DNA of 64,000 bases from Porticoccaceae bacterium. GTDB taxonomy: Bacteria; Pseudomonadota; Gammaproteobacteria; Pseudomonadales; Porticoccaceae. Positions within the stretch are counted from its first letter, which is position 1. Every line of letters begins with the position of its first letter. Below the pieces are notes generated by a model. It did not search any database. It saw only the letters and a list, made by a program, of their open reading frames with translations, and had not been told where the DNA came from. A program made the translations under genes and the position numbers. The DNA lies in the NCBI GenBank assembly GCA_029252555.1, contig JAQXBF010000011.1, positions 1-64,000 of the forward strand. The letters run 5' to 3'. Positions 27,957 through 41,028 of the stretch are shown one piece after another.

Positions 27957-28106
27957 TGCAGAGTCCTCTGTAGGGGGTTGATAAAAGCTTGTAAGCTAAT
28001 AATTTATATTGCTATTCTAAGAGTACATGATAATTTTTCTTGCGCAAAACGGCTATTATTTAGAATATTTTATGATTTATAACAATTAAAACGGGATATT
28101 TTAATT

Positions 28107-28604
28107 ATGACATCCACTTCAGAATCAGCTGACAAACTTGGCAAGATAGACCGCAATATTCTGCGGATACTGCAAAAAGATGGGCGCATAAGCTACACCG
28201 ATCTAGCGCGAGAGGTCGGGCTGTCTGTTACACCCTGTATTGAGCGGGTCAAGCGCCTCGAGCGAAGCGGAACCATTCTCGGCTACTCAGCGAAAGTCTG
28301 CCCACAAAAACTGAATGCAAGCCTGGTGGTATTTGTGCAGATAAGGCTGAACCACACTTCACAAAAGAATTTTGAAGAGTTCCACCGCTCGGTGATGGAC
28401 CTAGAAAATGTGCAGAGCTGCTTCTTAGTTTCCGGTAACTATGACTACCTTTTAAAAGCCAGAGTGGCAGATATGGCAGCTTATAGAGAACTCCTAGGCC
28501 ATCGCATTCTCAAACTGCCAGCTGTGCAAGAATCCACCAGCTATGTGGTTATGGAAGAGTTAAAAGAAACCATGGAAGTGCCAGTGCCCTACAGCCGAAA
28601 ATAA
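28107..28604 (+). CDS. Lrp/AsnC family transcriptional regulator
   Basis: 165 residues. The N-terminal helix-turn-helix is in DRNILRILQKDGRISYTDLAREVGLSVTPCIERVKRLE-type sequence (residues 12-49), then a ligand-binding RAM domain with the pattern VQSCFLVSGNYDYLLKARVAD. It matches Lrp itself in length and style. Lrp-type regulators commonly lie divergent from ald and activate it in response to alanine or other amino acids. The 150-base intergenic region is AT-rich with a small inverted repeat (AGCTT/AAGCT near 27986-27997), a plausible binding zone. Confidence 0.93.
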   Translation: MTSTSESADKLGKIDRNILRILQKDGRISYTDLAREVGLSVTPCIERVKRLERSGTILGYSAKVCPQKLNASLVVFVQIRLNHTSQKNFEEFHRSVMDLENVQSCFLVSGNYDYLLKARVADMAAYRELLGHRILKLPAVQESTSYVVMEELKETMEVPVPYSRK

Positions 28605-28638
28605 CCAGTAAAAACAAGCTAATATCCATGCCTTAAGG

Positions 28639-28667
28639 TTGACTCAAATCCATTGCTCACCTATAGT
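28639..28667 (+). promoter_or_regulatory. Stable-RNA promoter of tRNA-Arg
   Basis: -35 TTGACT (28639-28644), 17-base spacer, -10 TATAGT (28662-28667), followed by a GCGC discriminator. A GC-rich discriminator is typical of tRNA promoters under stringent control. The mature tRNA starts 27 bases after the -10 box. Confidence 0.75.
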
Positions 28668-28694
28668 GCGCTACCTCAGAAATGAGTCCAAAAC

Positions 28695-28771
28695 GCACTC
28701 GTAGCTCAGCTGGATAGAGTACCCGGCTACGAACCGGGCGGTCGAAGGTTCGAATCCTTCCGAGTGCGCCA
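28695..28771 (+). tRNA. tRNA-Arg (anticodon ACG)
   Basis: 77 bases with encoded CCA. Acceptor stem GCACTCG/CGAGTGC, D-arm AGCTCAGCTGGATAGAGT, anticodon stem CCCGG/CCGGG with loop CTACGAA (anticodon ACG at 34-36, A34 to be deaminated to inosine for CGU/CGC/CGA), T-arm GGTTCGAATCC. All four arms fold. Confidence 0.97.
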
Positions 28772-28818
28772 TATACAAAAAAACCCATCTTTTAAGGTGG
28801 GTTTTTTTGTATATGGCG
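28767..28818 (+). terminator. Long palindromic terminator starting within the tRNA-Arg 3' end
   Basis: Two arms of 21 bases (28767-28787 and 28798-28818) pair perfectly around a ten-base loop that can pair further. The left arm includes the last five bases of the tRNA with its CCA; the right arm contains T7. It will terminate the tRNA transcript. Confidence 0.9.
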
Positions 28819-28976
28819 TAAAATCAAATAAGAGCCTACTGTTAAAATCTCGGTAAAACCCCAACCTCAATAAGCTCAAAGACCAGCGTTCTGATCCAAT
28901 CAAAACAACCCCGCGTAATCTTGAAAAGTAACAATAAAAAGATTGAATCAACTCAACGGATTAAAAGGGTAATCAG

Positions 28977-29276
28977 ATGAAGACAAAACTAGCATTTCTT
29001 TGGTTTTACGACTGCTACAACGCAGTGATGGATCACAACAAAAATCCCCTTCGGCATATTCCTGATCCAGTCTCAAGACTTTGGATCATGACCGTACTTG
29101 CTTGGATGTGGTCAGTGGTGTTTGGCGTCTACTTAGGTAGTGTGATTTACATGGGTATTAGCATAGCCTCTCACTTTATACTGCTGTTCATGGTGTCATT
29201 TACAGCGGCCATTTTCTACGACGCTGAACGCCGTCATGACAGCTGGCTGCTCAAACTCAGAGAAGTACAAGGCTAA
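28977..29276 (+). CDS. Small membrane protein, function unknown
   Basis: 99 residues with two hydrophobic helices (LWIMTVLAWMWSVVFGVYLG and ISIASHFILLFMVSFTAA) between polar ends. The N-terminal FLWFYDCYNAVMDHNKNPLRHIPDP and the C-terminal FYDAERRHDSWL face the same side in a two-helix hairpin. I do not recognise a family. The gene is preceded by AT-rich DNA and stands alone between the tRNA and the DUF1244 gene. Confidence 0.7.
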   Translation: MKTKLAFLWFYDCYNAVMDHNKNPLRHIPDPVSRLWIMTVLAWMWSVVFGVYLGSVIYMGISIASHFILLFMVSFTAAIFYDAERRHDSWLLKLREVQG

Positions 29277-29396
29277 AACTTCGGCCCTGGGTCGCGCACT
29301 TGTGACGGGCGTGACCAGTCTTAAGTGCCTTTCAAAAATATTTATGGTCACTATAATTGGTTATCCAGTTTTTCTAACTTTCGGACAACCTAAGAC

Positions 29397-29690
29397 ATGA
29401 TCACATTCTCTCAGCGCACTGAACTTGAAGCCGCCGCCTTCCGGCGGCTTATTCAGCATTTAGATGACAATAAAGACGTTCAGAACATCGATCTGATGAT
29501 TCTCGCTAACTTCTGTCGCAACTGCTTAAGTAAATGGTATGCAGCGGCGGCTAATGAGCGAGATATTGAGATGGACTACGATCAGGCGCAGGGGGCTATC
29601 TATGGCATGGCCTACAGCGAGTGGAAGGATAAACACCAGACACCCGCCACTGCTGAACAGCTAGCGGCCTTTGCCAAACGTCAGAAATAA
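29397..29690 (+). CDS. DUF1244 family protein
   Basis: 97 residues. The body LEAAAFRRLIQHLDDNKDVQNIDLM, then ANFCRNCLSKWYAAAA and AIYGMAYSEWKDKHQ, matches the conserved small alpha-helical DUF1244 family, found widely in proteobacteria and of unknown function. The two nearby cysteines (FCRNCL) are invariant in the family. Convergent with the cysteine synthase gene, with one base between the stops. Confidence 0.9.
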   Translation: MITFSQRTELEAAAFRRLIQHLDDNKDVQNIDLMILANFCRNCLSKWYAAAANERDIEMDYDQAQGAIYGMAYSEWKDKHQTPATAEQLAAFAKRQK

Positions 29691-29691
29691 A

Positions 29692-30768
29692 CTATTCGTT
29701 GAGATGAAAACTCGGCGTGGACAGAGACAGAGCAACCTCCGCGTCATCCATTTCTTCGCCGACCCCCTCGAATAGAGGTGACGACAGATAGCGCTCACCA
29801 GTGTCTGGAAGCATGCACAGAATCACGGTTCCAGGTTCGGCGATCTCGGCGATATTTTGGGATACAGAGAACGTCGAGCCACCAGATATACCCGTGAATA
29901 TTCCTTCCTTCTGCGCCAATAATTGCGAAGCACGAATCCCTTCTTGAGCATCTATGGGCATAAGCTGATCAAAGCGGTTTTGATCGATGGATTCCTGCAA
30001 TACAGCGGGAATAAAGTCTGGGGTCCAGCCCTGAATCATATGGGGTTCAAAGGCAGGGTGACTACCTGCGGGCGCTCCATAGGCTCCGCGCTCTTGGGCA
30101 TACCCACTCTGGATAAGCTGGGCATTAACCGGCTCACTCAGAATTATTTGAGTTTCCGGCCGCTCCTCACGCAGCACCTTAGCCACGCCAGAGAAGGTGC
30201 CACCAGTACCATAACCTGTCACCCAATAATCCAGCCGATCACCGGCGAAGTCGGCAAGAATTTCTTTAGCGGTAGTATTCTCATGAATTTTTGCGTTGGC
30301 ATCTGTTTCAAATTGTCGCGCTAAGAACCAGCCATTCGCATCGGCCAGCTCTACAGCTTTAAGATAACAACCCATGGCCTTATCCGCCTTTGGAGTCAAA
30401 ATTACCTGAGCTCCAAGGAAGCGCATAAGTTTGCGTCGCTCTATTGAGACGCTGGTGGGCATTGTTGCAACAAAAGGATATCCCTTTGCCGCACAAACCA
30501 TCGCTAGCCCAACACCGGTATTACCACTAGTTGCCTCGACAACGGTCTGCCCCGGCTTGAGTTCGCCACTACGCTCAGCTTCTTCGATAATACTGATAGC
30601 CAAACGATCTTTCACCGACCCTGCGGGATTAAAGAATTCGGCTTTTACGTAGAGCCGCACATGGTCTGGCACTAACTTTCTAACGCGGACACAGGGAGTG
30701 TCACCGATAGTATCCAAAATGCTGTCGTATAGCTTTCCGCGCCCTGCTGTTGCTCTTGACTGTTCCAT
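29692..30768 (-). CDS. Cysteine synthase A-like (O-acetylserine sulfhydrylase)
   Basis: 358 residues, fold type II PLP enzyme. The Schiff-base lysine is in NPAGSVKDR (Lys53), the substrate loop is TSGNTG (80-85), the phosphate-binding loop is GTGGTFSG, and the C-terminal GERYLSS is family-typical. Longer than E. coli CysK (323) with an N-terminal addition and a C-terminal tail (SLSTPSFHLNE). It makes cysteine from O-acetylserine and sulfide. CysK versus CysM/cystathionine beta-synthase-like subfamily is not settled by eye. Confidence 0.9.
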   Translation of the reverse strand: MEQSRATAGRGKLYDSILDTIGDTPCVRVRKLVPDHVRLYVKAEFFNPAGSVKDRLAISIIEEAERSGELKPGQTVVEATSGNTGVGLAMVCAAKGYPFVATMPTSVSIERRKLMRFLGAQVILTPKADKAMGCYLKAVELADANGWFLARQFETDANAKIHENTTAKEILADFAGDRLDYWVTGYGTGGTFSGVAKVLREERPETQIILSEPVNAQLIQSGYAQERGAYGAPAGSHPAFEPHMIQGWTPDFIPAVLQESIDQNRFDQLMPIDAQEGIRASQLLAQKEGIFTGISGGSTFSVSQNIAEIAEPGTVILCMLPDTGERYLSSPLFEGVGEEMDDAEVALSLSTPSFHLNE

Positions 30769-30833
30769 GATCGCTACTCCCTCATTTGATAAATGTTTGA
30801 GTTAAGTTCAGAGGGAATCATAAATCAAAGAGC

Positions 30834-31391
30834 TCAGTCGTAAAAGCCAATCTCTGCTACATCAATTTCTGCCTGGTGGTCCCGACCATAAGCCAAAATA
30901 CCAATACTGCGGATGGCGCTGGGCTTTAAAGCCTTGCGCAGCCACGAGCCCGATCGCTCAAAAGCCGAGAGAGGTAACCTAACAACCTGCCATTCGCCTG
31001 TTGTTTCAAAGCCGGCCTGATAATACTGCCAGGGCAGCACCGTGCCAGAGGTGCGCAGGTGAATATAGTAGCCTTGAGAGTTACCGCGAACCTTCAAATA
31101 AACCCCAGCAGCAGAACCTACAGAGCCCTTGGGCACTGTCCTGCGAATCTGGATAAATCCTCCATTGTTCTCGGTAGAAACGCGGCCCGTCATATGGGCG
31201 TAATTCTCTCCGTCTTGCTCCATGTATTCCACGGACCCCTCTGAAATACCCCCCATAACTTGATCGCTAAAATAAGCCCATCCCAGCTGGGATTGCGCAT
31301 TAAAGGTATCAGACAAAAGATTTTCAGCGCCAACGGTTGACGCCGACGCAGACAATGCAACGGTCAAAATAATACCCTTAACTTTGTTCAT
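30834..31391 (-). CDS. CIA30 family protein, secreted
   Basis: 185 residues with a signal peptide (MNKVKGIILTVALSASASTVGA). The mature part has a CIA30-type carbohydrate-binding-like beta fold: WAYFSDQVMGGISEGSVEY, GGFIQIRRTVPKG, GVYLKVRGNSQGYYIHLRTS, and SIGILAYGRDHQAEIDVAEI. The name comes from a mitochondrial complex I assembly factor; the secreted bacterial members have no proven role. Lies 65 bases downstream of nothing on its strand except the TIGR03643 gene, 19 bases away, so these two may be cotranscribed. Confidence 0.85.
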   Translation of the reverse strand: MNKVKGIILTVALSASASTVGAENLLSDTFNAQSQLGWAYFSDQVMGGISEGSVEYMEQDGENYAHMTGRVSTENNGGFIQIRRTVPKGSVGSAAGVYLKVRGNSQGYYIHLRTSGTVLPWQYYQAGFETTGEWQVVRLPLSAFERSGSWLRKALKPSAIRSIGILAYGRDHQAEIDVAEIGFYD

Positions 31392-31410
31392 AATTGGATC
31401 CTATGGGTTA

Positions 31411-31692
31411 CTAGCGTTTGTACTGGGATGGGCAGTATCCCCTACTGACATCAGGCGAGCGCAGAGATAGGTGCTTTGTTTTACGACTGGTAACACGCTT
31501 TCGCCATAGCCGGAATGACCTGGCCTTAACTTGGCTGCGCATCAGGTTGATCACCGCAGACTCATTGAGTCCAAAATTAAATTCAATCGCTTCAAATGGC
31601 GTACGATCTTCCCAAGCCATCTCGACAATCCTCGATAGCTCTGACTGGGTAAATTCTCGAGACGGTTGAGTCCCGACGGGGATAGCTGTCAT
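31411..31692 (-). CDS. TIGR03643 (DUF2805) family protein
   Basis: 93 residues from the ATG at 31692, which has AAAGG nine bases upstream; an ATG 13 codons earlier (31731) is possible. The core FTQSELSRIVEMAWEDRTPF, FGLNESAVINLMR and FRLWRKRVTSRKTKH is highly conserved in this small family of unknown function. A basic helix and an HTH-like spacing suggest nucleic-acid contact, which is inference. An inverted repeat (TTGTATC/GATACAA, 31743-31762) lies just upstream of the longer start. Confidence 0.85.
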   Translation of the reverse strand: MTAIPVGTQPSREFTQSELSRIVEMAWEDRTPFEAIEFNFGLNESAVINLMRSQVKARSFRLWRKRVTSRKTKHLSLRSPDVSRGYCPSQYKR

Positions 31693-31846
31693 GGGAGAGG
31701 CCTTTAGTGTTTTAACTCTTTGTGTACGCATTACAGAGATATTTGTATCAGGCCAGATACAAGAAAGCCCTCCACAAGACTGGGGCGGGCTTAGTGTTTG
31801 TGAAATTGACGTTAGCTGAAGTCAATAAAGCCTTAACTCATGATGG

Positions 31847-32038
31847 TCAGGACCCCATCAGGCCTAACTTCTTAAGTAATGTCAGATCTCGCTTTAAGCC
31901 CTCTTCAATATGAGATTCAATCAAATTGACTCGGTGCTTGGTAAAGCTGTCAGGCACTACTTTTAAGGTAACCAGCTTCTTTGGTTGCTCATTATCGCCG
32001 CTTCTATCATCCTCAGTCTTACTATTAGCTAATGACAT
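31847..32038 (-). CDS. Small acidic/basic protein, function unknown
   Basis: 63 residues, polar, no membrane segment: a charged N-terminus (SKTEDDRSGDNEQPKK), a short beta-like LVTLKVVPDSF, then a helix ending RDLTLLKKLGLMG. Not recognised. The ATG is one base after the stop of the preceding 277-residue gene, so it is almost certainly cotranslated with it and may be a partner protein. Confidence 0.55.
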   Translation of the reverse strand: MSLANSKTEDDRSGDNEQPKKLVTLKVVPDSFTKHRVNLIESHIEEGLKRDLTLLKKLGLMGS

Positions 32039-32039
32039 T

Positions 32040-32873
32040 CTAATCTACTTTCAATAGCCTTAGGCTGTGTTCTAACCCCAGTCGCAGTCCAAATTGATCG
32101 TACAACCACTTGTAATAATCTTCTCGGCCTGCATTAAAATAATTAGCTTTATTAGCCTTGATACACAATATGTAGGGGTAACTTCTCGATGGCCTATGAT
32201 AAATAGGATAGCAGAGAACTGAGCCCTTCTCGTTTTCCTCGAACATATGGTAACGCTGATCAACGGTTTTTTCTGCCTCCCTTTGTATACCTGGGATCAC
32301 CACCACAGATTTTGTTGCCACACAGTGCCTTACAGCACTGTCAGGGCAATCGAGTTCAGATATTTCATGCGTCGGAGGTTCACCCCCATGGGTATACCAA
32401 CTCAATAGCTCTCCTTGAGCGCCTATCTCTGCCAAGCGAACATAGAAGCTGGCATTACCAGCAATCTTCTCAAAAAACTTCCAAACCGTGTTAACAGTAA
32501 AATATATCTGCTGATCGGGCTGGGTAATCGACTTAAACACAGTGCTGGCCTCGGCATTATTGCCATATGCCAGAAACGCCTCACATTCACCCTCAATACG
32601 ATCCGACTTGATGCCCACAATATCCTCAAAGGCCTCTTTCAGAATCAACACATCTTCCCGTTTTAAAATGCCACTTTTCTTGGCTATGGCATTAGCGATC
32701 TTGGGCAAAAGGTTATAAATAGCTAAAAACAACAACGTACTTAAAAAATAACAGCAAGTTATTGGCTGAAAGCCATACGATAGAATTTTCTGAAAGATTT
32801 TTATTAAAAAGGGTTTCGACTGACTCTCTTGACTCTCTGGTGAAATATAAAAATAATAAAAACGGGAATACAT
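32040..32873 (-). CDS. Membrane-anchored protein with GAF-like region, function unknown
   Basis: The C-terminal ~220 residues look genuine: a membrane helix (CCYFLSTLLFLAIYNLLPKI), a linker, then a soluble part with NASFYVRLAEIGAQGELLSW, VRHCVATKSVVVIPGI and KGSVLCYPIYHRPSRSYPYI, the pattern of a GAF-like sensory domain. The first ~30 residues of this frame are doubtful: an overlapping frame upstream, in a different phase, reads EYVDRPWVMVLMAAFNVFPF with a hydrophobic helix followed by RESRESVETLF, and looks like a better N-terminus (see findings). Start and integrity are therefore uncertain. Upstream partner of the 63-residue gene. Confidence 0.5.
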   Translation of the reverse strand: MYSRFYYFYISPESQESQSKPFLIKIFQKILSYGFQPITCCYFLSTLLFLAIYNLLPKIANAIAKKSGILKREDVLILKEAFEDIVGIKSDRIEGECEAFLAYGNNAEASTVFKSITQPDQQIYFTVNTVWKFFEKIAGNASFYVRLAEIGAQGELLSWYTHGGEPPTHEISELDCPDSAVRHCVATKSVVVIPGIQREAEKTVDQRYHMFEENEKGSVLCYPIYHRPSRSYPYILCIKANKANYFNAGREDYYKWLYDQFGLRLGLEHSLRLLKVD

Positions 32874-32895
32874 TGAACGCAGCCATAAGGACCAT

Positions 32896-33277
32896 TACCC
32901 AGGGGCGATCTACATATTCGACAAAAGAAAGGAAACGCTGGGTCCATCTTCCGTTTATTTTATGACTTATATTGCTCGAGCAATTTCCCTGTCATTTTTG
33001 ACGGCGTTTGCGGAAGTATATTCAACGAAACAGCCGCCTGCCGATTATTTTGCATAATTTATCCAAGGGCACACCAATACTGGCCTGTAAAACCAAATTG
33101 GCAGATTTGGGAAATAGGAAAAGTCGTTATACCACTGACGCCCCTATGGGCAAATATTGCCGTATTGCCATCGTTAATATAAAAGGGCTATAGTCTCATC
33201 CATAAAAATAAAATCCTTTCCGCAGAGCCTCGATTATTAAAGGTTTGCGCAGTGCAGCGGATTAATGGAGTCTTAAA
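32896..33277. other. Gap before alkB, no gene seen
   Basis: About 380 bases. The minus strand to about 32960 may code the displaced N-terminus of the preceding membrane protein. The plus strand just before 33278 carries a good ribosome-binding site (GGAGTCTTAAAATG) for alkB. A TATAGT at 33190-33195 could be part of an alkB promoter, but no -35 is clear. A 61-codon plus frame at 33008-33193 has no family resemblance. Confidence 0.6.
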
Positions 33278-34456
33278 ATGGTCACTTATTCAATTGAAGA
33301 TGCCCAGACAGGGTCTATTAGCTACAGCGATAGAAAGCGTTACCTGTGGCTTATCTCAGTCATCATGCCTACTTTCCCTCTGATGGGTGTGTTCATCTTT
33401 TACCAAACCGGTCTCGAGTGGACCCTCTGCTTGCCATTAATAATCAACTACATAGCCATGCCAATTCTCGATTGGCTGATCGGCAGTGATAACAACAACC
33501 CCCCTGAAGAATTAGTGCCGCAGTTGGAAGCCGATAAATACTATCGATATCTGACCTATGCCACAGTGCCAATGCACTTTATAGTGCTGGTCAGTCTGGC
33601 CTATGTAGTGGGTACCAATGATCTCAGTTGGTGGTCAATTCTAGTCACGGCCATTATTGCGGGTGGTTACAGCGGGCTGGGCATCAATACAGCCCATGAA
33701 TTAGGTCACAAGCAGACCAGCATTGAGCAACTTTTGTCCAAAATCACCCTAGCTGTCCCAACTTACGGGCATTTTTGTGTAGAGCACAATCGCGGCCACC
33801 ATGTTCTGGTAGCAACGCCAGATGACCCCGCCAGTTCTCGGATGGGCGAGTCAATATATGCGTTCACCCTCAGGGAAATTCCCGGCACCTTTAAGCGGGG
33901 CTGGAATTTGGAAAAATCTCGCCTGAGCAAACAGGGTAAAAGCACTTGGTCTATTCATAATGATATTCTCCAGTCCTACGCCTTAAGCACTTTACTGCAA
34001 GGTGCATTAATCTCTGCATTTGGCTGGGTCATGGTGCCATTTTTAGCAGTGCATAATGTTTGGGCTTGGTATCAGCTTACTTCGGCCAATTATATTGAAC
34101 ATTATGGTCTGTTGCGTGAGCAAAAAGAGAATGGTCGCTATGAGCGCTGTCAGCCCCACCACTCTTGGAATGCTAATTACATTATGAGTAATCTTGCGTT
34201 ATTTCATTTAGAGCGCCACTCAGACCACCATGCCAACCCAATTCGTCGCTATCAAAGTCTGCGCAACTTTAAAGATATACCTGAACTGCCCAATGGCTAC
34301 TATGGCATGTACTTGCTGGCCTACATCCCCTGGCTTTGGTACCGAGTAATGGATCATCGGGTCCTTGCTCTGCCCCATATCGATGGCGACTTATCCAAAG
34401 TGAATATCTGCCCCCGTAAAAGAGATCAAATTTTCGCTAAATATGGCACTAGATAA
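33278..34456 (+). CDS. alkB: Alkane 1-monooxygenase
   Basis: 392 residues, six predicted membrane helices. The four conserved histidine motifs of integral-membrane di-iron hydroxylases are all visible: HELGHK (140-145), EHNRGHH (169-175), NYIEHYGLLR (271-280) and LERHSDHH (311-318). The enzyme hydroxylates the terminal carbon of medium-chain n-alkanes using rubredoxin and rubredoxin reductase, neither of which is in the window. A GGAG ribosome-binding site precedes the ATG. Alkane oxidation is common in marine gammaproteobacteria. Related fatty-acid desaturase-like or xylene monooxygenase proteins differ in the HYGLxR motif. Confidence 0.95.
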   Translation: MVTYSIEDAQTGSISYSDRKRYLWLISVIMPTFPLMGVFIFYQTGLEWTLCLPLIINYIAMPILDWLIGSDNNNPPEELVPQLEADKYYRYLTYATVPMHFIVLVSLAYVVGTNDLSWWSILVTAIIAGGYSGLGINTAHELGHKQTSIEQLLSKITLAVPTYGHFCVEHNRGHHVLVATPDDPASSRMGESIYAFTLREIPGTFKRGWNLEKSRLSKQGKSTWSIHNDILQSYALSTLLQGALISAFGWVMVPFLAVHNVWAWYQLTSANYIEHYGLLREQKENGRYERCQPHHSWNANYIMSNLALFHLERHSDHHANPIRRYQSLRNFKDIPELPNGYYGMYLLAYIPWLWYRVMDHRVLALPHIDGDLSKVNICPRKRDQIFAKYGTR

Positions 34457-34458
34457 AA

Positions 34459-34728
34459 CTAGCCTGCATCAAAGAAAGTTCCACTCCTAAACCCGCTTTT
34501 GCGGGTGCAGCAGCGTTTTCCAATAGTCCTCTTGATGGTAAAGCCCTTTCCGGCCGTGTCCCGCCCTTCTAACACAATCACCAAACGTTGACGATTTTTA
34601 ATCAGGCGCTGTTGGATTTTTAAAAGTTCTACTTGTAAGCGACGCTTTTCAACTTGATACTCTTGTTACCGCTGTAGGGCGTCTCTAATGTTTTTATCTG
34701 TTTTAATTTCATTGGGAAGAAAAGCCTT
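34459..34728 (-). pseudogene. Remnant of polyphosphate kinase 2
   Basis: The minus strand of the alkB-hydrolase gap holds about 90 codons in one phase. They read KAFLPNEIKTDKNIRDALQR, a TAA (34666-34668), then QEYQVEKRRLQVELLKIQQR, then RLVIVLEGRDTAGKGFTIKR, and become unrecognisable before a TAG at 34459. PPK2 proteins have an N-terminal helix ending RRLQ.EL.KLQ, then the Walker A EGRDAAGKG and TIKR, in the same order and spacing. The family is about 250-300 residues, so over two thirds are gone. The stop and the missing body make it a decayed remnant. I see no functional start. It is antisense to, and downstream of, alkB. Confidence 0.8.
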
Positions 34729-34843
34729 CTATTACTATCAAGATTAGACGCTGTTTAAGAAGATTATTTAAATATGAAACATTTTTAGCCGGCGTATAGG
34801 CAAACATAGGTTAAGAATTAAATAGTAAATATGGGGAACAAGA

Positions 34844-35785
34844 ATGGAGCTCAAAAGCATCGCCTTTGATAATGGAGCAGCTGGCAGCCAATATTATCAT
34901 CAATGGAAGTCAGAAAAAGCGGTAGCCTGGCTCCACATTATGCACGGTATGGCAGAGCACAGCGCTCGGTACGCTGATTTAGCGGCATTTCTCAACCAGC
35001 AGGGCATTATGGTGACCGCAGGCGACCACCGAGGGCATGGCCGTACAGGCGATGCCATGGACAGCCTCTGCCATTTAGGTGACAGCAACAGTTGGAATCA
35101 GATGATTGATGACCAGTGGCAACTCATCATCCATATTGCCGCAGAGCAAAAGCTGCCATTAATAATCATGGGGCACAGCATGGGGTCATTTATGGCCACA
35201 CGGTTCTGCCAGCAATATGGCCTGCAACTTCAGCAGCAACTCGATAACCGGCTGATTGGGCTTGTCCTGTCTGGCTCAAACTACGATGCGCCTGCCACCT
35301 TCAAAGTAGCTGCAGGCGTTGCTTGGATTGAGCGCGCACGCGTTGGTGGGCGAAATACCAGCAATATCCTTGAACAGCTATCCTTTGGCTCATTCAATCG
35401 CTTGTTTAAGCCAGTGCGTACAGAGAAGGACTGGCTATCCACTGACAACCATGTCGTAGACACTTACATTGCCGACCCATGGTGTGGAGGAGCCCTAAGT
35501 ACTCAGTCTTGGTATGACTTTTTAAAGGGGCTGGCACAACTGTCTCAGCCAAAGGCCATGGCCCAAATAGATTCGGCAATACCTATTTACCTGTTCGCCG
35601 GGGATTTAGACCCGGTCGGAGCTAATGGAAAAGGCGTTGAGAAATTGCGACAAGCGTTTCTGCAGGCAGGTACAGCTAATGTAGAAATGAAACTGTATGA
35701 GGGCGGGAGGCACGAAATGCTCAATGAGTCAAATAAACAACAGGTCTATCATGATTTGAACTGCTGGGTACAAGGCCGATTATGA
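34844..35785 (+). CDS. Alpha/beta hydrolase, monoacylglycerol-lipase-like
   Basis: 313 residues. The nucleophile elbow is GHSMG (in LIIMGHSMGSFMATRF). The acid is in LFAGDLDPVGANGKG and the His in GGRHEMLNESNK, completing the triad in the usual order. MHGMAEHSARYADLAAFLNQ and DHRGHGRTG are lysophospholipase/monoglyceride-lipase signatures. No signal peptide, so likely cytosolic. It is the next intact gene after alkB and may help process lipids or esters, but the PPK2 remnant lies between and no operon is evident. GGGGA ribosome-binding site. Confidence 0.87.
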   Translation: MELKSIAFDNGAAGSQYYHQWKSEKAVAWLHIMHGMAEHSARYADLAAFLNQQGIMVTAGDHRGHGRTGDAMDSLCHLGDSNSWNQMIDDQWQLIIHIAAEQKLPLIIMGHSMGSFMATRFCQQYGLQLQQQLDNRLIGLVLSGSNYDAPATFKVAAGVAWIERARVGGRNTSNILEQLSFGSFNRLFKPVRTEKDWLSTDNHVVDTYIADPWCGGALSTQSWYDFLKGLAQLSQPKAMAQIDSAIPIYLFAGDLDPVGANGKGVEKLRQAFLQAGTANVEMKLYEGGRHEMLNESNKQQVYHDLNCWVQGRL

Positions 35786-35925
35786 CAGTGACCATTTGCT
35801 AATGGTAAAGCGCTCGGTGCTAACGGATTTATCCTCAAGCCTCCCGCTCGTGGCACCAATTTTTCTCGCCGCAGGCGTAATTTATGAACCTGACTCTTTA
35901 CACTCAATTTCTGTCGTTCCGGCGG

Positions 35926-35966
35926 TTAAATAAAAAAGCCACCTTTCAGGTGGCTTTTTTATTTAA
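35926..35966. terminator. Bidirectional terminator between hydrolase and tRNA-Pro
   Basis: Eighteen-base arms (35926-35943 and 35949-35966) pair perfectly around TTTCA. The core is GCCACC/GGTGGC with a T6 tract on both strands, so it can end the tRNA-Pro transcript and the plus-strand transcript. Confidence 0.9.
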
Positions 35967-35967
35967 C

Positions 35968-36044
35968 TGGTCGGGACGGCAGGATTTGAACCTGCGACCA
36001 CTACACCCCCAGTGTAGTGCGCTACCAGGCTGCGCTACGCCCCG
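35968..36044 (-). tRNA. tRNA-Pro (anticodon GGG)
   Basis: 77 bases with encoded CCA, CGGGGCG at the 5' end, D-arm AGCGCAGCCTGGTAGCGC, anticodon stem CTACA/TGTAG with loop CTGGGGG (anticodon GGG), T-arm GGTTCAAATCC. It follows the thrS-to-merR cluster, a common gammaproteobacterial position. Confidence 0.97.
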
Positions 36045-36058
36045 ATTTTAGAGGCGCA

Positions 36059-36086
36059 ATCATACAGATCAGGCCTTTTAATGCAA
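36059..36086 (-). promoter_or_regulatory. Likely tRNA-Pro promoter
   Basis: On the minus strand -35-like TTGCAT (36081-36086), a 16-base spacer and TATGAT (36059-36064) are followed by a GC-rich discriminator (TGCGCC). The tRNA begins 14 bases later. The merR gene ends 30 bases upstream, so this would give the tRNA its own start. Confidence 0.5.
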
Positions 36087-36116
36087 CCGTTTATGCTGGC
36101 GTAAAGATACGACAGG

Positions 36117-36476
36117 TCAATCGTGACTCAGTGCGTCTAATATATCTTCTAACTCAGTAATCGTCTGGTCTAGAAGTTGTTTGTAGGGGGTTTGTTCTTG
36201 CTTGGTCGATTCGCCCTCAAGCTTCTGCCTGGCACCGCCAATGGTGAAGCCATGTTCGTAAAGGAGTGAACGGATCTGACGGATTAGAACAACATCTTGG
36301 CGCTGATAATAGCGGCGGTTGCCGCGGCGTTTAACTGGACTCAGGCTGGGAAATTCTTGTTCCCAGTAACGCAAAACATGGGGCTTAACTAAACACAACT
36401 CACTTACCTCACCAATGGTGAAATAACGCTTGCCTGGTATGGTTGGCAATTCGTTGTTATTACTTGGTTCCAGCAT
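36117..36476 (-). CDS. MerR-family regulator
   Basis: 119 residues. The N-terminal helix-turn-helix is [25 protein letters not shown] followed by the wing [13 protein letters not shown], typical MerR. The dimerisation helix continues [11 protein letters not shown] and a short coiled tail ends in DILDALSHD. No metal-binding cysteines are placed as in MerR/CueR. It is the usual small MerR-like partner that follows ihfA in gammaproteobacteria, and overlaps it by 17 bases. Target unknown. Confidence 0.9.
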
Positions 36477-36759
36477 AGGTCTCTACTCTTGCCTTCAACT
36501 TCTGACCCGGCTTGAAGGTAACAACTCGCCGAGCTGAAATTGGAATATCTTCACCCGTTTTCGGGTTTCGTCCCGGCCGACTACTTTTGTCACGCAACTC
36601 AAAGTTACCAAAGCCCGACAACTTTACCTGATCATTGCTCTCTAGGGCGGCGCATATTTCGCTATAGAACATCTCAACGATTTCCTTGGCTTCTCTTTTA
36701 TTGAGCCCAAGTTCATCGAATAACATTTCAGCTAAATCAGCTTTGGTCAACGCACCCAT
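36460..36759 (-). CDS. ihfA: Integration host factor alpha subunit
   Basis: 99 residues from the ATG at 36759 (AGGT ten bases upstream), which gives the standard IHF-alpha start [20 protein letters not shown]. The DNA-binding arm is intact: [20 protein letters not shown] with the intercalating Pro. It bends DNA with IHF-beta, encoded elsewhere. A 26-residue upstream extension in the same frame is unlike the family. Overlaps merR and follows pheT. Confidence 0.96.
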
Positions 36760-36805
36760 TTCGTAATACCTAACTCCACATTCTAAGTTCTGACCTTTAT
36801 CCCGA

Positions 36806-39202
36806 TCAGCCCCTGAGTTCAGCCTTAAATTTATCACCGAGTTCAGTGATAACTCGATCTACCGCCAGATTAATTTCTTCGTCAGTAAGAGTGCGCGAAC
36901 TATGCTGAAACGTCAAGCCTAGCGCAACACTTTTTCCTTTGTTTTCAACATCTTTGCTGTGATACACGTCAAACAACTTTAAATTAGTTAGCTGCTCGCC
37001 TGCCACCGCTTTCGCCGCATCCATCAAATCAGCAGCTTGCACTAAGCTGTCGACAAAAAATGCTAAATCACGCCTAACTTCTGGGAACTTGCTCACTTCT
37101 TTAAACTTTGGCAGCTTGCTTGGCGCAATTTTATCGGCATTTACCTGAAATAAGTAAACTGCCGTGTTTATACCCAAATTAGCCTCGATTTTAGGGTGTA
37201 ATTGCCCTACCCAGCCTATCAGCTCACTATGGCGAATCAGCGCTGCCGACTGCCCTGGGTGCAATGCTGGATGCAGTTGCGCCTCAAATTTAAAATCTCC
37301 CATCAGCCCTGTGTAATTCAATAAAGCTTCAAGGTCTCCCTTAATATCGTAGAAATCGACTTTTTCTTTAGTCGCGGTCCAACCAGTTGGGGTGCGCGAA
37401 CCGCAAATTAAGCCAGCCAATGCCATATTTTGCTCTAGGCCAAGTACCGATTTTTTATCTTGATTAGCGGCCGGCACAAAGCATTGCCCAGCTTCAAAGA
37501 TGCGAACGCGGCTCTGCTGACGATTTAAGTTGTGCACCGCTGTAGTCAGCAGGCCAGGCCACAGACTGGTGCGCATAACCGACATGTCCGCTGAAATTGG
37601 ATTAGCCAGCGCAACCGGCTCTATCTCTGGGTCAATCAGCTTCTGCATGGCTGGGTCGACAAAACTATAGGTCACCGCTTCCTGGTAGCCGCTGGCCACT
37701 AGGTGATTCCTAAATGCAGGAAGGCCTTGAATAGTTTCAGAGTTAGCCTGTAACTCTAGGGCCATAGAGGGTGTTGATGTTGGCAGATTGTTGTAGCCGT
37801 AAATTCTAGCTACCTCTTCAATCAGGTCCTGTTCGATCTCTAGGTCGAAACGCCAGCTTGGGGCAACCCAAGTGGAGCCAGAGCCATTTCTCTCTAACAG
37901 AGTTAAGCCCAGACGCACGAGCATATCGTCAACATCTGAGGCGGCAATGGAAACACCCAGCTGCTGTGCGAGACGGTCATCTCGCAATGTAATTGTTGCA
38001 GATGCTGGCAGATGCGGCTCAGATTCAGTTACTAAAACAGGGCCAGCACTACCACCGCAAATCTCTAACATTAGCGATGTGGCACGCTCGATAGCGGCAA
38101 CCTGAAGCTCTGTGTCAACACCACGCTCAAAACGGTGTGAGGAATCCGTATGCTTGCCATAGTTACGCGCCTTTCCAGCAATAGCCAAAGGATTGAACCA
38201 GGCACTTTCGAACAGTATATCGCTGGTATTATCGCCAACTGCGGACTCATCACCGCCCATAATACCTGCCATAGCTAGGGCTTTAGCCTGGTCTGCAATA
38301 ACCAGAGTTGCTGTGTCAACCACAACCTCAGAATCGTCAAGGAGCTTTAATTTTTCATCACGCCCCATGCGCACCACAATATCTCCGTCAATTTTAGACA
38401 GATCAAAGGCATGCATAGGCTGACCCAATTCAAGCAGGACATAGTTGGTTACATCTACTGCCGGACCCAAACAGCGAACGCCGCTGCGACGCAATTTCTC
38501 TTGCATCCACTGGGGGGTTTGCTGAGTAAGATCAAGACCGCGAATGACCCTGCCCACATAGCGCGCGCAGGCCTCTGGGGCGTCCAGAGAGACTTCCACT
38601 GTGTCCCCAATTGTAGCCTCGACAGGAGCGCAGGTTTGCTGTGTGACAGATGCTTGATTAAGCACACCAACTTCACGGGCTAATCCTCGAATACTCAGGC
38701 AGTCACCACGGTTTGGAGTAAGGTCGACTTCGATAATATTGTCATCAAGATCAAGATATTCAATCAGATCACAGCCCACTGGCGCGTCTGCCGGCAATTC
38801 CCACAGACCTGCATCATCATCGCCCAACTCTAATTCGGATTGCGCGCAGAGCATACCGGAGGACTCAACACCACGCAGCTTAGCCTTTTTAATCTTAAAG
38901 TCGCCGGGCAGTAAGGCACCTACGGTTGCAAATGGCACCTTGATACCAGCGCGAGCATTGGGCGCACCGCAAACCACCTGTGCCGTTTCGCCGCCACCAA
39001 CAACCTGGCAGACGCGCAGCTTGTCGGCATCCGGGTGCTGCTCAACGGCCAGTATTTCACCCACTACCACGCCAGTCATCTGTGGAGCAGCAGGATCCAC
39101 TGCATCCACTTCAAGGCCGGCCATAGTCACCTGAGCCACCAAATCCTCTGTACTGATCGATGGGTTAACTGATTGTCTCAACCAGGATTCACTAAATTTC
39201 AT
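36806..39202 (-). CDS. pheT: Phenylalanyl-tRNA synthetase beta subunit
   Basis: 798 residues, the standard length. Domains in order: N-terminal tRNA-binding OB domain (residues ~40-150, [20 protein letters not shown]), B3/B4 editing domain, B5 domain, the catalytic-like core, and C-terminal anticodon-binding domain ([15 protein letters not shown] to the end, KFKAELRG). It forms the alpha2-beta2 synthetase with PheS. 13 bases after pheS, 46 bases before ihfA. Confidence 0.97.
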
Positions 39203-39215
39203 AATTCACCCCAGC

Positions 39216-40235
<1,020 letters not shown>

Positions 40236-40271
40236 TCACCACATAACCAGATTATGTATCTTATTACTGAT

Positions 40272-40308
40272 AAAAAAATAGGGAAAGAGCAATAGCCCCT
40301 TCCCTATT
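40272..40308 (-). terminator. Terminator/attenuator in the rplT-pheS gap
   Basis: AATAGGGAA pairs perfectly with TTCCCTATT over a 19-base loop, and the right arm (minus sense) runs into T7. It stands 43 bases before the pheS start, the position of the phenylalanine attenuator in enteric bacteria. No Phe-rich leader peptide is visible; the only small frame upstream (ATG-ATT-AAC-AGC-TGA, 40362 to 40348) has no Phe. Confidence 0.75.
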
Positions 40309-40371
40309 CGATTAGCTTCTTATAAAGCTGCTATATAAGCAGTTTATTTCAGCTGTTAATCATCTTGTCTA

Positions 40372-40728
40372 TTAAGCTAGGGCGGCTTTGGCTTGGTTTA
40401 CAACCGCGCCAAAAGCAGCTTTGTCATGCACAGCCAAGTCAGCAAGCACACGACGGTCCAGGGCAATACCCGCTTTGCTGAGACCATTGATCAAACGGCT
40501 GTAGGACAAACCTTCAACACGTGATTGAGCATTGATACGAGCAATCCACAGTCTGCGGAAGGTACGCTTTTTAACGCGACGGTCACGGTATGCATATTGG
40601 CCCGCTTTAGTCACTGCCTGAACAGCTACTCGATAAACGCGGCTACGCGCTCCGTAATAACCCTTTGCTTGCTTTAAAATTTTCTTGTGTCGACGACCCG
40701 CTTCAACACCACGTTTTACTCTAGGCAT
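40372..40728 (-). CDS. rplT: Ribosomal protein L20
   Basis: 118 residues, family length. [36 protein letters not shown] and [20 protein letters not shown] are essentially invariant. Binds 23S rRNA early in 50S assembly and, in E. coli, represses its own operon by binding the leader before rpmI. Lies 31 bases after rpmI. Confidence 0.98.
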
Positions 40729-40759
40729 ATCATTCTCCTACCAAAAATTAGTTAGTGAC

Positions 40760-40954
40760 TTAAACGTTTCGCAACATGCGGTCTACACGCGGCTTATCAG
40801 CAGCATTGAGAATGCTGGTGCCACGAAGTTGACGCTTGCGCTTAGTAGTCATTTTGGTGAGGATATGGCTTTTATGCTGATGCTTGTGCTTATAGCCTGC
40901 AGCCGTCTTTTTGAAGCGTTTTGCAGCTCCACTATGTACTTTAGCTTTTGGCAT
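40760..40954 (-). CDS. rpmI: Ribosomal protein L35
   Basis: 64 residues. [40 protein letters not shown] and [13 protein letters not shown] are family signatures. Between infC and rplT as in all gammaproteobacteria. GGAG ribosome-binding site in the 147-base leader. Confidence 0.97.
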
Positions 40955-41028
40955 TTCTGTTCTCCAATAATAAGAGGTTTATAAAATCAACAAGAGACGC
41001 CCGGACAGCCTGCCAAAAACAATGGCTG

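Follow-up and report, generated by a model that had tools for sequence, protein, structure and literature searches.

Class I PPK2 enzymes, among them those of Francisella tularensis and Sinorhizobium meliloti, phosphorylate nucleoside diphosphates from polyphosphate according to sections of a review (PMC8776046); the same sections state that adenosine tetra- and pentaphosphate can be formed by PPK2s of each of the three classes, and print the Walker A motif as GxxxGK. Ruegeria pomeroyi is another marine bacterium with ppk2 and without ppk1, as given in an extract of PMC3030594. In the excerpted parts of a 2018 survey of 944 genera, 42 are counted as PPK2-only and bacteria without polyphosphate metabolism are described as exclusively host-associated (PMC5932413).

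The DNA analysed, which we refer to as the window, is a 64,000-base stretch from a Porticoccaceae genome of a SAR92-type genus (g1, for which 50 genomes were compared), and lies on contig 40 of a 2.30-Mb, 40-contig assembly that is 97.5% complete. It contains a ppk2 pseudogene, the 5' quarter of the gene, on the minus strand at 34521-34712 (Table 1). A Pfam profile search of the whole genome gave a single PF03976 match, which is this remnant (34516-34668, minus strand, E 1.7e-11, scoring 44.6 bits where the cut-off is 22.3) and is limited to profile positions 4-54, a protein-against-genome comparison placed it at residues 19-65 of the intact ortholog, and a DNA profile exhibited homology over nucleotides 2-199 of ppk2 (window 34711-34521, E 1.6e-35). 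The intact ortholog is the 286-residue PPK2 of a relative in the same genus, G011 (isolate AK_MB88, CALSSA010000001.1). In tblastn against it, codons 20-64 lie in one frame (EYQVEKRRLQVELLKIQQRLIKNRQRLVIVLEGRDTAGKGFTIKR) and share 82% identity over 45 residues, whilst codons 1-13, beginning with the ATG at 34712, lie in a different frame with 12 of 13 residues identical; the two stretches jointly give E 4e-19, a likeness that chance would not produce. By profile match and orthologous position, the remnant is a member of the PPK2 (PF03976) family by descent.

These results bear out most of the initial annotation, made from the letters alone, which had described about 45 residues with PPK2 order in one phase, on this strand and with no intact frame: no continuous frame runs from the start codon, as a frameshift and a TAA precede codon 20, and no open-reading frame of at least 60 aa overlaps the 387-base gap between alkB and the hydrolase. 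It had called the remnant antisense to the alkB surroundings, which is correct for the strand, but the remnant sits between the alkB stop (34456) and the hydrolase ATG (34844) and is not antisense to alkB itself. Its statement that the remnant has no start was mistaken, as the ATG at 34712 begins MKLKQIKTLETPY. The stub retains the N-terminal part together with the Walker A loop (GRDTAGK, codons 52-58 of the stub; the Walker A pattern is GxxxxGK). The Walker B motif, which we take to be the FFDRSWYSR stretch of the ortholog, and the lid module are absent, with codons ~66-286 missing at the locus and unmatched across the genome. Lacking the remainder of the kinase, the stub therefore makes no enzyme.

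Table 1. Features of the ppk2 pseudogene and its neighbours in the window
Feature	Position	Strand	Evidence
ppk2 pseudogene, codons 1-13, start ATG, MKLKQIKTLETPY	34674..34712	-	tblastn, DNA alignment
Frameshift site, 11 bases for 18, TAA 34666-34668	34663..34673	-	DNA alignment
ppk2 pseudogene, codons 20-64, Walker A EGRDTAGKG	34528..34662	-	PF03976, tblastn, PDB matches
71 bases from codon 64 to the alkB stop, ~220 codons missing; inverted repeat 34492-34505	34457..34527	.	Profile match end
Alkane 1-monooxygenase (AlkB-type), convergent neighbour	33278..34456	+	PF00487 E 1.6e-23; PDB 8sbb (alkane 1-monooxygenase) E 4.5e-139
alpha/beta-hydrolase (Hydrolase_4), divergent neighbour, synteny anchor	34844..35785	+	PF12146 E 5.3e-47

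Amongst PDB chains, the best solved relatives of the stub are the class I PPK2 of F. tularensis (4yeg, 5ll0, 5llb and 5llf; E 1e-8). The same protein is close to the intact ortholog (E ~1e-54), yet nearly everything that it carries after Walker A is missing from the stub. The best solved match of the G011 PPK2 is the class II two-domain 3czp (E 2.9e-58), followed by the F. tularensis and S. meliloti PPK2s, and the ortholog falls under the cut-off of NCBIfam TIGR03707 PPK2_P_aer (269.3 vs. 301.8 bits). On this comparison the intact ortholog is a candidate class I-like PPK2; judged from these relatives, the gene before its decay would most likely have encoded a similar enzyme, moving phosphate between polyphosphate and nucleoside diphosphates. 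Full-length copies in g1, g15 and g27 are 67-77% identical to the G011 PPK2 and 14 copies of other genera in the family are 31-36% identical, in a comparison that left out the remaining PPK2 copies, including second copies in G113, G117 and G122.

Two lesions separate the stub from an intact gene. Aligned with the DNA of G011, G004 and G016, codons 14-19 are represented by 11 bases instead of the expected 18, a net loss of 7 that places the start and the main stretch in different frames, with the exact position of the gap within these codons set by the aligner. The single ochre that had been noted before the 45-residue stretch is present, but since it straddles the aligned gap it most plausibly arose with the frameshift, and is probably not a separate mutation. 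The second lesion is a truncation: homology stops after codon ~66, and ~220 of the 286 codons are gone from the locus and have no match elsewhere in the genome. Codon 64 and the alkB stop are separated by 71 bases, with faint homology reaching only to 34521 and an inverted repeat lying between the remnant and alkB.

The alpha/beta-hydrolase gene, matched in 36 of the 50 genus genomes, allowed the same locus to be followed in relatives. In a tree built from 35 hydrolase rows (30 from the genus and five from g27), the window forms one clade with G011, G004, G022, G019, G013 and G041 (SH-aLRT 93), of which G019 and G013 have the hydrolases most similar to its own (80% and 79%). The surroundings of the hydrolase in relatives are combinations of alkB, an XRE/cupin regulator, a propeller-like membrane protein, ppk2 and a HNOB (haem-NO-binding) protein. 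In G011 the order is propeller-ppk2-hydrolase, with ppk2 divergent from the same hydrolase as in the window, but with a full open frame and the propeller gene as its flank instead of alkB. G004 (SI074_bin111) has the order XRE-ppk2-hydrolase and a lesion of its own, one internal in-frame TAG at the residue before GRDAAGKG, which could be a sequencing error. Recoding of TAG was considered and set aside, as the TAG in G037 and G040 reads as the terminal stop, with the match open up to it, and only that of G004 is internal. Another broken copy, in G022 (SI075_bin53), is a stub of codons 6-61 with 2 stops in the stretch matching the remnant, its match beginning ~5 bases from the hydrolase start. 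In G019 and G013, XRE stands immediately ahead of the hydrolase and ppk2 is absent, and G041 has the propeller gene and no ppk2. In the more distant G003, G007, G015 and G045, alkB is again the neighbour of the hydrolase, at a distance of 316-399 bases and with no trace of ppk2, whilst the intact ppk2 of G016, G037, G040 and G046 is located away from the hydrolase. A scan of 1,300 bases of DNA preceding the hydrolase, with a nucleotide profile built from 12 ppk2 genes, covered 30 genus loci (31 records, as the window was included twice; the 36 hydrolase-matched genomes minus six) and found ppk2 DNA only in G011, G004, the window and G022, the next best match having E 4.1.

Smaller traces of gene loss were also seen. 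In one relative, L060:3273-3365 matches no more of the XRE regulator than its final 31 residues, which makes it apparently a further remnant within this variable region. A HNOB gene follows the hydrolase in sub-clade relatives such as G019, G013 and G011, and with no HNOB match in window 28001-41000 it seems that this gene was lost in the window genome too (window 35785-36117). The only RNA element within 33000-36500 is a tRNA-Pro(ggg) at 35968-36044 on the minus strand, ahead of a MerR gene. In an order-level relative (G026:C23; L013, L016) the match to one PPK2 copy is split into two pieces that overlap, the first of them containing a TAG, and this copy is possibly broken.

All ten copies of this PPK2 type in g27 (nine intact, one broken) sit divergently beside the same hydrolase, and for this reason the divergent arrangement was most likely in existence before g1 and g27 separated, and the place is ancestral. 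Over codons 20-64, the stub and G011 differ with pN 0.12 and pS 0.63, and G004 and G011 with pN 0.11 and pS 0.58, values that are imprecise over 45 codons; their likeness suggests that coding constraint acted on the stub through most of its history and that the loss came late, and on this sequence comparison the decay of ppk2 is recent relative to the divergence. The 95% identity to G011 over 60 bases had raised the idea of special nucleotide conservation in the stub, which was rejected, as its pS is near that of G004 and G011. We are highly confident that the remnant is what decay has left of the 5' end of a chromosomal ppk2, a gene that the SAR92-type genus inherited together with its position. 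In the ancestor, ppk2 would have been transcribed divergently from the alpha/beta-hydrolase gene; a small deletion in the window lineage would then have shifted the frame early in ppk2, and removal of codons ~66-286 would have left the 3' end of alkB beside the stub. As the other six genomes of the sub-clade carry the regulator (XRE) or the propeller gene where the window has alkB, one or more deletions probably removed XRE or propeller DNA as well. The exact pre-deletion order alkB-ppk2-hydrolase is seen in no relative and four relatives have alkB beside the hydrolase with no ppk2, so that we infer the breakpoints and the co-deletion of other genes, along with the number and order of events.

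An alternative is that the stub has been kept as regulatory DNA, with a promoter or operator of the hydrolase lying within what was the 5' end of ppk2; deletions would then take the outer end of the gene and spare the inner one. The 5' sequence beside the hydrolase is indeed retained in both g1 stubs (the window and G022) and in the broken g27 copy, G112, and in G022 it reaches almost to the hydrolase start, but G112 also retains a piece from codons 133-172, and G019 and G013 keep the hydrolase where no ppk2 DNA was found. Synonymous identity is slightly higher at codons 1-35 (0.44-0.50 in 15-codon windows, vs. 0.30-0.49 elsewhere), although a pS of 0.63 between stub and G011 does not make nucleotide conservation special, and no promoter-like site lies within the stub, the scanned region having one against 1.0 expected, inside the hydrolase gene. 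We consider regulatory retention unlikely. Still less probable, and by some way, is an assembly error in which a misjoin truncated an intact ppk2; the genome is in 40 contigs and the species is represented here by this one assembly, but the two lesions, an internal net loss of 7 bases and the truncation, are separate, the missing ~220 codons have no match in the rest of the genome, and the same locus is at other stages of decay in relatives. That the stretch encodes a P-loop mini-protein, a short PPK2-like peptide with a function of its own, is barely credible: its Walker A stretch EGRDTAGKGF has two substitutions vs. the G011 ortholog and pN is low relative to pS, yet a stop precedes the 45-residue frame, no start-to-stop reading across the Walker A part exceeds 41 aa (begun at an internal TTG), translation from the true ATG yields 27 aa and departs from the PPK2 frame after ~16 residues, and the counterpart in G022 has 2 stops.

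With the remnant read as an inherited, decayed ppk2, its loss can be set against the other polyphosphate enzymes of the genus. PPK1 (PF02503) was detected in 32 of 112 genomes of the family and PPX/GppA (PF02541) above the cut-off in 31 of 112, both with none in g1, g15 or g27, and hence in 0 of 50 genus genomes, the window genome included. Sub-cut-off PPX/GppA matches occur in 31 of the 50 and were set aside; the one in the window genome looks MreB-like, judged by eye from its sequence. Intact PPK2 of this type is present in five of the 50 (G011, G016, G037, G040 and G046), and the remaining 45 comprise the copy with an internal TAG in G004, the two stubs of the window genome and G022, and 42 genomes with none; several of the 50 are 71-90% complete, which makes single absences uncertain. 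No other PPK2 was found in the window genome, within the limits of an assembly that is 97.5% complete, and the loss of the PPK2 gene proposed in the initial annotation is upheld. With no PPK1 and no above-cut-off exopolyphosphatase in the genus, the loss of ppk2 removed the last standard polyphosphate enzyme detected in the window genome, and from its gene content the bacterium appears to have lost the polyphosphate route of storing and spending phosphate energy. In a genus that shows neither PPK1 nor above-cut-off PPX/GppA, the loss was probably tolerated because standard enzymes would make little or no polyphosphate. Phytase was considered as a partner of PPK2 and rejected, the association being too weak: 9 of the 50 genomes have it, among them three of the five with intact ppk2.

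The remnant alone is an ordinary bacterial pseudogene of the sort skipped by annotation pipelines; its value lies in the decay series, in which intact, nonsense, stub and erased states of one inherited locus are found among close relatives. It also helps to characterise a marine genus in which intact PPK2 of this type was not seen in 45 of the 50 genomes, and PPK1 or above-cut-off PPX in none. Such a genus is a lead against the 'exclusively host-associated' description in the survey (PMC5932413) and no disproof, as the survey's enzyme list appears wider than the set searched here. Beyond the remnant itself, interest lies in this decay series and in a gene pair, PPK2-NUDIX. No published account of ppk2 loss in SAR92-type bacteria or of this pair was found among the titles and abstract openings of the SAR92 and PPK2 literature searched, and neither is mentioned in the excerpted parts of PMC2668756, PMC6588378, PMC4699468, PMC3030594, PMC8776046 and PMC5932413.

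The pair was traced across 20 loci of this PPK2 type (eight in g1, two in g15 and ten in g27). A NUDIX gene (PF00293) lies directly downstream and unbroken in 14 of them (L100-L105, L107-L109 and L116-L120; that of G118, cut by a contig end, is counted here) and ppk2 is intact in all 14, whilst the NUDIX gene is missing or broken in six, in four of which ppk2 is broken, kinship being ignored in both counts. NUDIX is absent in G011 and G016, where ppk2 is intact, and in G004, G022 and the window, where it is broken. G112 (L099:5-558) is another decay event: its ppk2, like that of the window, is broken beside an intact hydrolase, but it is frameshifted and internally deleted and runs into a broken NUDIX gene. 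It seems, then, that ppk2 and the NUDIX gene were lost together. In the genus the NUDIX protein is matched in three of 50 genomes, exactly those where it is adjacent to ppk2. Its nearest solved relative is Ndx1. Hypothetically, a nucleotide-polyphosphate NUDIX enzyme could trim the adenosine tetra- and pentaphosphate made by PPK2. We put forward tentatively, as a possible but doubtful reading, that PPK2 and the adjacent NUDIX protein form a two-gene unit in g1, g15 and g27, where no PPK1 was found, with PPK2 using outside or non-standard polyphosphate and NUDIX trimming over-phosphorylated nucleotides; once either was lost the other would become dispensable, and g1 would be on its way to a free-living existence with no standard polyphosphate enzymes. 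In G040, G064 and G065 (L105:4212-7956, L101:5038-8680 and L102:414-4035; the proteins of G065 identified by their similarity to the G064 ones) the ppk2-NUDIX pair has a TonB-dependent receptor and a phytase gene as neighbours, a cluster which suggests a phosphorus-acquisition island.
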